Positions 17,636 through 20,153 of a stretch of DNA of 50,673 nt are shown one piece after another. Numbering within the stretch: the first letter of the stretch is position 1; every line of letters starts with the position of its first letter. Source of the stretch: Rhodospirillales bacterium. Lineage in GTDB: Bacteria > Pseudomonadota > Alphaproteobacteria > Acetobacterales > Acetobacteraceae. A model generated the notes under the pieces. The model was given only the letters and a program-made list of their open reading frames with translations, was not told where the DNA came from and ran no database searches. Both the position numbers and the translations under genes were made by a program. The stretch is from positions 1 through 50,673 of the forward strand of contig JAGWSV010000031.1 in the NCBI GenBank assembly GCA_028869315.1, read 5' to 3'.

Positions 17636-18895
17636 ATGCACATTGAATCTGACGTCCCCCGTCAATTGCAGCGCTCCGCGACCTCCGCCCGGCTTGCGGT
17701 TCGCGCGCTCGCCCAGACGTCCGCCGCCCAACGCGACGCCGCGTTGCGGGCGATGGCTGCTGCCGTCCGGACCGAGGCCCCGCAAATCCTGGCGGCCAAT
17801 GCCGCCGATCTTGCCGCTTCGACGGCCGGTCCGGCGTTCCGCGACCGGCTTGCCCTCGACCCGCCCCGCGTGGAGGCGATCGCCGCAGGGCTCGAGACCT
17901 TGGCCGCATTGCCGGACCCGCTGACACGCGATCTCGGCCATTGGACGCGGCCCAACGGGCTCCGGATCGCGCGCATCCCGGCGCCGATCGGCGTCATCGG
18001 CATGATCTATGAAAGCCGCCCGAATGTCGGCGCCGACGCTGCCGGCATCTGCATCAAGTCCGGCAACGCGGTGATCCTGCGCGGCGGCTCGGACAGTGCG
18101 CGCAGTGCCGCAGCGCTCCATGTGGCGCTCGCGCAGGGCCTGCGCGCCGCCGGCCTGCCGGAGCAGGCGGTGCAGATCGCCGGCGTGACCGATCGCGCCT
18201 ATGTCGCCGCCATGCTCGGTGCGGTCGGCCTGATCGACCTCATCATTCCGCGCGGCGGCAAGTCGCTGGTCGAGCGGGTGCAACGAGACGCGCGTGTCCC
18301 TGTGCTGGCGCACGCCGAAGGCCTCTGTCACACCTTCGTCCATGCCGCCGCCGATCCGGCGATGGCGCGCGCCGTCGTCGCCAATGCAAAGATGCGGCGC
18401 ACCGGGATCTGCGCCGCCACCGAAACCCTGCTGGTCGACCGGGCCGCCGCCCGCGACTTGCTGCCGCTGCTGGTGGCCGATCTGCGCGCCCTGGGCTGCG
18501 ACTTCCGTGCCGATCCCGATGCGCGGGCCATCGTGCCGAGCCTGCGTGCCGCGGAAGCGGGAGATTTCGACACCGAATGGCTGGATGCCACGCTCTCGGT
18601 CGCCGTCGTCGACGGGGTGGACGGGGCGCTCGATCACATCGCCCGCCATGGCAGCCAGCACACGGATGCTATTGTCACGGAGGATCGTGCCGCCGCGCAG
18701 GACTTTCTGCGCCGGATCGACAGTGCGGTCGCGCTGTGGAACGCCTCGACCCAGTTTTGCGACGGTGGAGAATTCGGCTTCGGCGCCGAGATCGGCATCG
18801 CCACCGGCCGGTTGCAAGCGCGCGGGCCGGTCGGACCCGAACAGCTCACTACTTATCGTTATGTGCTGGAAGGCAGCGGCCAGGTGCGGCCCTGA
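17636..18895 (+). CDS. proA: Glutamate-5-semialdehyde dehydrogenase (gamma-glutamyl phosphate reductase)
   Basis: The 419-aa product is the second enzyme of proline synthesis. It reduces gamma-glutamyl phosphate to glutamate-5-semialdehyde with NADPH in the cytoplasm. It is a member of the aldehyde dehydrogenase superfamily; the catalytic cysteine is Cys259 in RTGICAATETLL. The segment GVIGMIYESRPNV (about 120-132) and the C-terminal GAEIGIATGRLQARGPVG are characteristic of ProA. Length is typical. It opens a plus-strand run with nadD and rsfS next, an arrangement often seen in alphaproteobacteria. proB is not in the window. Confidence 0.97.
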   Translation: MHIESDVPRQLQRSATSARLAVRALAQTSAAQRDAALRAMAAAVRTEAPQILAANAADLAASTAGPAFRDRLALDPPRVEAIAAGLETLAALPDPLTRDLGHWTRPNGLRIARIPAPIGVIGMIYESRPNVGADAAGICIKSGNAVILRGGSDSARSAAALHVALAQGLRAAGLPEQAVQIAGVTDRAYVAAMLGAVGLIDLIIPRGGKSLVERVQRDARVPVLAHAEGLCHTFVHAAADPAMARAVVANAKMRRTGICAATETLLVDRAAARDLLPLLVADLRALGCDFRADPDARAIVPSLRAAEAGDFDTEWLDATLSVAVVDGVDGALDHIARHGSQHTDAIVTEDRAAAQDFLRRIDSAVALWNASTQFCDGGEFGFGAEIGIATGRLQARGPVGPEQLTTYRYVLEGSGQVRP

Positions 18896-18975
18896 AAGCA
18901 GCGACCCGGAAGGCGCCGACGCGGGGTGCGGGGTTTGGGCCGGCGCCGCCGCCGCGCTTCGGCGATCGGCGGCGG

Positions 18976-19551
18976 ATGCGCATCGGCCTGCTCGGCGGCT
19001 CGTTCAATCCCGCGCATGCGGGGCATCGCCATGTCGCCGACCTGGTGCGCCGGCGGCTGCAACTCGATCAAGTCTGGCTCCTTGTCTCCCCCGGCAATGT
19101 GCTGAAGCCGCGTGCCGGGATGGCGCCGTTTAGCGAACGGCTGGGCAGCGCGCGGTCCATCGCCGACGAACGGCGGGTCGTCGCAACCGGGATCGAGGCG
19201 GCGTGGCAAACGCGATACAGCATCGACACATTACGCCGCCTGCGCATCCGCTTCCCCCGCGTCCGCTTCGTTTGGGTGATGGGCGCCGACATTCTGGCGC
19301 AGTTACCACGCTGGCGGCGCTGGGAAGATTTTGTCCGCGACGTCCCCATTCTTGTGATGCCGCGTCCGTCGTATAATCTGCGGGCGCTGTCCGGGCAGGC
19401 CGCGCGCCGATGGCGCCGGGCGCGGCGGCCTGACCGTGCAGCGCCCAGGCTCGTGGACGCGGCGCCGCCGGCCTGGCTCTTTCTTCCGGCGCCGCAACAT
19501 CCTGCTTCGGCCAGCGCGATTCGCGCCGCCCGCAAAGGAGCCGTGCCATAA
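18976..19551 (+). CDS. nadD: Nicotinate-nucleotide adenylyltransferase
   Basis: The 191-aa product joins nicotinate mononucleotide and ATP to give deamido-NAD in NAD synthesis. The nucleotidyltransferase motif GGSFNPAHAGH (7-17) matches the family GSF-P-H-GH pattern, and the late segment ASASAIRAA stands in for the usual SST-IR motif. The frame extends far upstream, but ATG at 18976 gives the standard MRIGLLGGSF start. It follows proA after 80 bases. The stop TAA overlaps a possible ATA start of rsfS (ATAA), as discussed at that site. Confidence 0.94.
   Translation: MRIGLLGGSFNPAHAGHRHVADLVRRRLQLDQVWLLVSPGNVLKPRAGMAPFSERLGSARSIADERRVVATGIEAAWQTRYSIDTLRRLRIRFPRVRFVWVMGADILAQLPRWRRWEDFVRDVPILVMPRPSYNLRALSGQAARRWRRARRPDRAAPRLVDAAPPAWLFLPAPQHPASASAIRAARKGAVP
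19534..19551 (+). promoter_or_regulatory. Strong Shine-Dalgarno followed by ATA at the nadD/rsfS junction
   Basis: AAAGGAG (19534-19540) is followed after seven bases by ATA (19548-19550), which overlaps the nadD stop as ATAA. This is exactly the geometry of an ATGA start/stop overlap, with A in place of G. The rsfS frame is open from this point. Either AUA is used as a rare start, or the site is a relic and rsfS starts downstream at 19686/19689. Confidence 0.5.
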
Positions 19552-19688
19552 CCAAGCCGCCCCCGTCCTCAGGCCCCCGTGCTCCTGGCACCCGCCCGTC
19601 CGGCACCCGCAAGTCGGCTCCGCGCAAGCCGCCGCGGCCGCTGCCGGCAGCGGACAAGTCGCCGGGCTCGCCACGCAAGAAGGCGGTG

Positions 19689-20153
19689 ATGGCGGGTCCC
19701 TCCCGCCGTACCGAGTCCCGTTCCGCCGCCGGTGCCGCCAATGGGGTCACCACGGGGGCCGATGACGTGCTCGATCGCGTCCAGTGGCTCATCGTTGCCA
19801 GCCTCGAGGATGACAAGGCAGAGAATATCGTCACGCTCGATCTCGCCGGCCGTGCCTCGTTCTGCGATCGCATGGTGGTGGCAAGCGGGCTCGCCGACCG
19901 CCAGATCGCGGCAATGGCCGAGCATCTGGTTGAAAAGCTGCACGCGGCGGGCTTGCGGCGCATCCAGGTGGAGGGGACCGGAGGATCGGACTGGGTGCTG
20001 CTCGATGCCGGCGATATCGTCGTGCATCTTTTCAAGCCTGAGGCGCGCGCGATGTACGCGCTCGAAAAAATGTGGAGTGCCGACCTCGACGAAGTGACGC
20101 CCGAAGACGTGGCCGGCGGCGTAGTGACCGGCGGCGAAGTGACCGGCGGCTGA
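19689..20153 (+). CDS. rsfS: Ribosome silencing factor RsfS
   Basis: RsfS binds ribosomal protein L14 and blocks subunit joining when nutrients are short. The conserved domain runs from about residue 27 (VLDRVQWLIVASLEDDKAENI) through DRMVVASG, the EGTGGSDWVLLDAGDIVVHLF segment and LEKMW near the end. The conservative start is ATG 19689, with AGAAGG five bases upstream; GTG 19686 is adjacent. This gives 154 aa. The same frame is open back to 19548, where a perfect Shine-Dalgarno precedes ATA; that form would be 201 aa with a basic, Pro/Ala-rich extension. A short Gly/Val repeat (GGxVTGGEVTGG) ends the protein. Neighbour nadD is the usual partner of this gene. Confidence 0.9.
   Translation: MAGPSRRTESRSAAGAANGVTTGADDVLDRVQWLIVASLEDDKAENIVTLDLAGRASFCDRMVVASGLADRQIAAMAEHLVEKLHAAGLRRIQVEGTGGSDWVLLDAGDIVVHLFKPEARAMYALEKMWSADLDEVTPEDVAGGVVTGGEVTGG

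Follow-up and report, generated by a model that had tools for sequence, protein, structure and literature searches.

The analysed window comprises 50,673 nucleotides and belongs, as one of 360 contigs, to the 3.95-Mb draft genome of a Rhodospirillales bacterium of the family Acetobacteraceae. On the forward strand the gene of the nicotinate-nucleotide adenylyltransferase (nadD, 18976–19551; NF000843), whose true start may be located further upstream, precedes and overlaps rsfS. Read from a putative AUA start codon at 19548–19550 to a TGA stop, rsfS extends over 19548–20153 and encodes 201 amino acids, of which residues 82–176 correspond to PF02410 and residues 81–176 to TIGR00090. With 100.5 bits against PF02410 (cut-off 21.6, profile positions 3–98 of 98 covered) and 108.9 bits against TIGR00090 (cut-off 56.9) the whole domain is matched above the curated cut-offs, which places the protein in the RsfS/Iojap/YbeB family. 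Members of this family bind uL14 and block subunit joining, a function that is predicted for the present protein. At the C-terminus (20108–20153) a short imperfect repeat, VAGGVVTGGEVTGG, is encoded.

The junction of the two genes is exactly as described in the original prediction. A Shine-Dalgarno sequence AAAGGAG (19534–19540), located inside the 3' end of nadD, is separated by the seven nucleotides CCGTGCC from ATA, which shares bases with the nadD stop TAA (19549–19551) in an ATAA overlap. The rsfS reading frame is open over 19434–20153, and between the ATA and GTG19686 it encodes basic, Pro/Ala-rich residues, as had also been stated. Ahead of the RsfS domain the only ATG, GTG or TTG codons in this frame are GTG19686 and ATG19689 (19686–19691), with AGAAGG at 19678–19683 on their 5' side.

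In a single genome such a junction might have arisen by chance, but its conservation shows otherwise, and the arrangement is shared by the closest relatives. AAGGAG followed after seven nucleotides by ATA is common to all six same-genus rsfS loci, the overlap being ATAG in five and ATAA in one. For the family Acetobacteraceae 162 distinct rsfS loci out of 191 were compiled, many of them from metagenome assemblies. After exclusion of 19 distant loci by locus number, the start site was placed in the remaining 143 with a motif picker that scores tail residues 2–6 only and is ignorant of codon 1 and of the Shine-Dalgarno sequence. In the 123 loci that could be placed the codon was ATC in 56, ATA in 50, ATT in 2 and another one in 15, so that 108 of 123 carry ATA, ATC or ATT at the homologous site. 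ATG is a single A-to-G step away from ATA, yet it was found in none of the 123. In 14 of the 15 loci with another codon, a picker that takes the Shine-Dalgarno sequence into account found AUA, AUC or AUU at a different place. The 20 loci without placement are truncated or have low-scoring tails; several of these (e.g. L009, L013, L016, L070) have ATA or ATC according to the Shine-Dalgarno-aware picker. In L092 (56% identity), one of the distant loci excluded, the codon at a similar place is ATG, with the N-terminus MARTPKTS.

Judged by the look of the junction alone, the ATA could have arisen recently by a G-to-A exchange in an ATGA of the ancestor, by which the original start might have been lost, or it could reflect a base error at 19550. 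Both origins are ruled out by the ATA and ATC of the relatives: the same ATA stands in all six same-genus loci and in 50 of the 123 placed family loci, most of the others have ATC, and an ATG at the homologous place is missing throughout. We consider the probability of either to be negligible, and the shared ATA likewise speaks against a lost start. Among the relatives ATGA occurs in L018 and L148 alone, where it precedes ATC by two codons and is not at the homologous place. In these two loci (gggagaATGAccATC) the ATG overlaps the nadD stop, and both the ATG and the AUC start may be in use.

The Shine-Dalgarno signal supports the placed site. For the 123 family picks the mean duplex energy with the anti-Shine-Dalgarno sequence is -6.8 kcal/mol at the site compared to about -1.8 kcal/mol at 3–12 codons upstream, giving a sharp peak at the motif position. 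Together with the AAAGGAG and its 7-nt spacer in the window, rsfS exhibits a strong Shine-Dalgarno sequence at working distance. Of the 108 Ile codons that occupy the start site 50 are ATA, whereas within the RsfS domains of these loci ATA is used for only 9 of 857 (Fisher P 9e-44). At least 15 changes among ATA, ATC and ATT are required on a quick tree built from the 108 domains, whose short sequences resolve it only roughly. A further test picked the codon with the best Shine-Dalgarno sequence and admitted only loci with a duplex energy of -6 or below (112 of 128 in the family, 69 of 112 in the class, 24 of 60 in other classes); here the best codon of family rsfS was a canonical one in 9 of 112 loci. 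By comparison of sequences, rsfS thus appears to have a conserved start other than AUG, GUG or UUG. The rare AUA start that had been proposed is probable in the light of the genus and family loci; rsfS very probably starts at AUA19548, and with high confidence we regard this start as real and ancestral in the genus.

The substitution pattern indicates that the stretch behind the ATA evolves as protein in the rsfS frame. In 11 independent close pairs, compared with codon 2 as one limit and the first canonical start (or the domain) as the other, with overlap of nadD in some pairs, 23, 9 and 54 substitutions fell on codon positions 1, 2 and 3 (P 2e-8). Between start site and domain, 89 of 108 loci encode a basic peptide of the form [P/A/S]-x-[T/S]-x-R-K-K. 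In the window the conserved tail peptide SPGSPRKKAVMAGP (19659–19700) spans the GTG and ATG at 19686/19689. A true start at one of these two codons, with the upstream frame left untranslated, would have the advantage of using the sole canonical starts in frame, both with AGAAGG upstream. The AGAAGG is indeed present as had been noted, but as it encodes the Lys-Lys of the conserved PRKKA peptide, it says little in favour of a second ribosome-binding site. The column of ATG19689 reads A in 58, I in 19, V in 13 and M in only 4 of the 94 readable loci (of 108). With these data and the conserved peptide, it is the sequence 5' of the downstream start that is conserved, and not this start itself. We therefore disfavour GTG19686 and ATG19689 as true start, which we consider very unlikely, as well as the suggested second start at this position. 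In 8 of 108 family loci no ATG, GTG or TTG at all is present from the in-frame upstream stop to the domain. Both the upstream extension and the Shine-Dalgarno sequence are hence conserved in relatives, whereas the original prediction would have been contradicted by their absence.

The relation of the start site to the end of nadD is variable. Where the nadD stop of an ATA locus could be located (n = 49), 36 loci showed the exact ATAA or ATAG overlap and 13 a stop upstream of the ATA; because of the latter, a TAA or TAG stop does not by itself account for the ATA. Among the relatives the nadD stop is found upstream, in four-base overlap or downstream of the start site, and all three frame relations of rsfS to nadD occur. 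Since stop position and frame vary, the conserved unit is the Shine-Dalgarno sequence with AUA, AUC or AUU and not the geometry of the overlap. The rsfS frame of some loci extends without a stop far into nadD, so that the upstream stretch could be produced by frameshift from nadD or from a canonical start located farther 5'. A conserved frameshift fusion is incompatible with the occurrence of all three relative frames; moreover, 14 of 108 loci have the frame closed by a stop no more than 10 codons 5' of the site, and 35 of 108 lack any canonical start upstream of it. A NadD-RsfS fusion by frameshift is therefore rejected, and the production of the stretch from further upstream by either route is extremely unlikely.

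A negative control for the occurrence of non-canonical starts was sought in nadD, and a second one in the rsfS of other classes. The former did not prove clean: of the 72 strong-Shine-Dalgarno family picks of nadD 66 were non-canonical, 58 of these being CTG, whose high number is due to a CTG overlapping the proA stop. AUA, AUC or AUU were picked in 8 of 72. The comparison was therefore limited to AUA/AUC/AUU counts and the rsfS of other classes was added. In several relatives nadD itself has no canonical start near the domain. A nadD CTG overlapping the proA stop (CTGA) is seen in the window (18892–18978) and in L005, L008, L010, L013, L015 and others, an RFGDRRR peptide is conserved 5' of the nadD ATG at 18976, and in Roseomonas-like loci a GTG or ATG is located close to the position of the CTG. 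The start of nadD may thus also be non-canonical (CTG); this is uncertain since the Shine-Dalgarno-like CAGGTGCGGCC doubles as the C-terminus of ProA.

Beyond the family, a class sample of 110 Alphaproteobacteria loci, mostly one per family, and a phylum search sample of 64 loci, 60 of them from other classes, were investigated. No canonical start up to domain codon +2 was present in 25 of 112 Alphaproteobacteria compared to 2 of 59 loci of other classes (Fisher P 8e-4). Among strong-Shine-Dalgarno loci the best codon was AUA, AUC or AUU in 49 of 69 Alphaproteobacteria but only in 5 of 24 from other classes (Fisher P 3e-5). There, many loci have an ATG or TTG where the domain starts, and the share of non-canonical picks (8 of 24) marks the noise level of the best-Shine-Dalgarno test. 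CTG was the best codon in another 15 of the 69 Alphaproteobacteria loci; these picks are less certain, because nadD of the family also yields many CTG picks. Starts with AUA, AUC or AUU thus seem to recur in rsfS across the Alphaproteobacteria and much less in other classes. In six Parvibaculum-like loci (L085, L088, L089, L096, L097, L104) rsfS shows aaggag-n7-CTG-agcagacaatc, a possible conserved CUG start.

A similar signal is found at infC, the gene of initiation factor IF3. The host encodes IF3 (PF05198, 107.8 bits; TIGR00168, 245.3 bits), and its infC (L222:1440-1990, contig C347) reads caggagaagacc ATA gca aga gga, so that AGGAG-n7-ATA-GCA-AGA is the likely start. In the family the best-Shine-Dalgarno codon of infC (n = 66) is ATA in 51, ATC in 8, CTG in 5 and TTG in 2 loci; a separate tally gave ATA 43, ATC 8, CTG 5, TTG 1, ATG 1 and one unread. 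The N-termini are alike as well, mostly I-A-R-G-P or I-A-R-P-P for infC and I-A-R-K-P or I-A-R-P-P for rsfS. A search of the own genome for RGGAG-N5-9-ATA-GCN-MG returned one match, at infC (reversed control 3), and in 100 family genomes the AUA-start pattern was not enriched over the reversed control. The idea of a genome-wide AUA regulon was dropped with this outcome. An AUA start would accordingly not be a general habit of these genomes; the lack of enrichment fits an effect on few genes but adds no support to it.

In E. coli, infC has a rare start that is under the control of IF3. We propose that rsfS is translated from AUA19548 by ordinary initiation with fMet-tRNA, aided by the strong Shine-Dalgarno sequence and probably also by coupling to nadD termination through the ATAA overlap. 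Discrimination of IF3 against AUA, AUC and AUU would render this initiation weak and dependent on free IF3, and with the same AUA signal on infC, IF3 and RsfS would rise together whenever the supply of free IF3 falls behind that of 30S subunits. An infC-like, IF3-sensitive start would in this way limit RsfS and link two subunit anti-association factors. What comparison shows is the conserved site, the Shine-Dalgarno sequence, the coding extension, a parallel signal at infC and no ATG in any of the placed family loci; that initiation actually takes place at the AUA, under the control of IF3 and for the proposed physiological purpose, is inferred. As a whole, an IF3-sensitive AUA start of rsfS, shared with infC, is the best explanation and a likely one; the control of rsfS by IF3, taken separately, is the leading explanation with a somewhat better than even probability. 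In E. coli, IF3 and RsfS are reported to act together, and the levels of the two go up when rimM is mutated (PMC13246957).

Alternatively, rsfS could start at AUA with the rare codon setting only a constant low level, or with re-initiation after nadD, in either case in the absence of IF3 regulation. The exact overlap with the nadD stop in 36 of 49 loci would suit this, as would the reported drop of reporter yield to about 10% with non-canonical starts in S. aureus in poor medium (PMC13009471). On the other hand, AUA and AUC sites are kept with the nadD stop upstream, overlapping or downstream and in all three frames, which means that the coupling geometry is not conserved, and infC bears the same AUA signal. 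We regard unregulated use of the AUA as possible but rather doubtful, and give preference to its control by IF3. A broader version of the IF3-linked reading, for which we see about even chances, is that the alphaproteobacterial rsfS start is under selection for AUA, AUC or AUU and forms a second target of IF3 proofreading besides infC. A shortage of free IF3 would then be sensed via the cell's own initiation errors, raising IF3 for the 30S and RsfS for the 50S subunit.

Few bacterial genes with conserved AUA, AUC or AUU starts are known. Similar to infC with its AUU, AUC or AUA start and IF3 autoregulation, rsfS has an AUN non-AUG start after a strong Shine-Dalgarno sequence, and in the own genome infC continues after AUA with GCA-AGA, much as rsfS does in relatives. 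The difference from infC is that IF3 would not be regulating its own gene here but a different one. UUG is a common minor start that is tolerated by IF3, unlike AUA. E. coli rsfS (ybeB) with its UUG start, as given in PMC10917681, offers the same gene with a weak start; apart from it, no earlier description of a non-AUG rsfS start was found in the titles and abstract openings of the open-licence PMC papers that literature searches brought up. According to PMC5472188, the Streptomyces gene sigR, likewise a gene other than infC, has a non-canonical start that is conserved and preceded by a strong Shine-Dalgarno sequence. It differs in that its start is GTC, confined to one genus, and that it encodes a sigma factor; repression by IF3 is experimental for sigR and inferred for rsfS. 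For S. aureus, where infC starts with AUA, conserved AUA and AUU starts with a strong Shine-Dalgarno sequence are described for ccpN and cvfC1, respectively, and lower expression there (PMC13009471). In contrast to rsfS here, these are other genes of another phylum, found by start-site profiling (PMC13009471).

An AUA start in both the ribosome silencing factor and infC of the same genome would constitute a simple circuit, tying the anti-association factors of both subunits to one sensor. In practical terms, gene callers restricted to ATG, GTG and TTG probably truncate or misplace rsfS in Acetobacteraceae and in part of the Alphaproteobacteria, and such miscalls lose the conserved basic tail. 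The length of this tail differs: in Roseomonas-like RsfS (L093, L098, L101, L103, L106) Lys/Ala/Pro-rich tails of 150–268 codons lie between AUA and domain, resembling the tails of histone H1.
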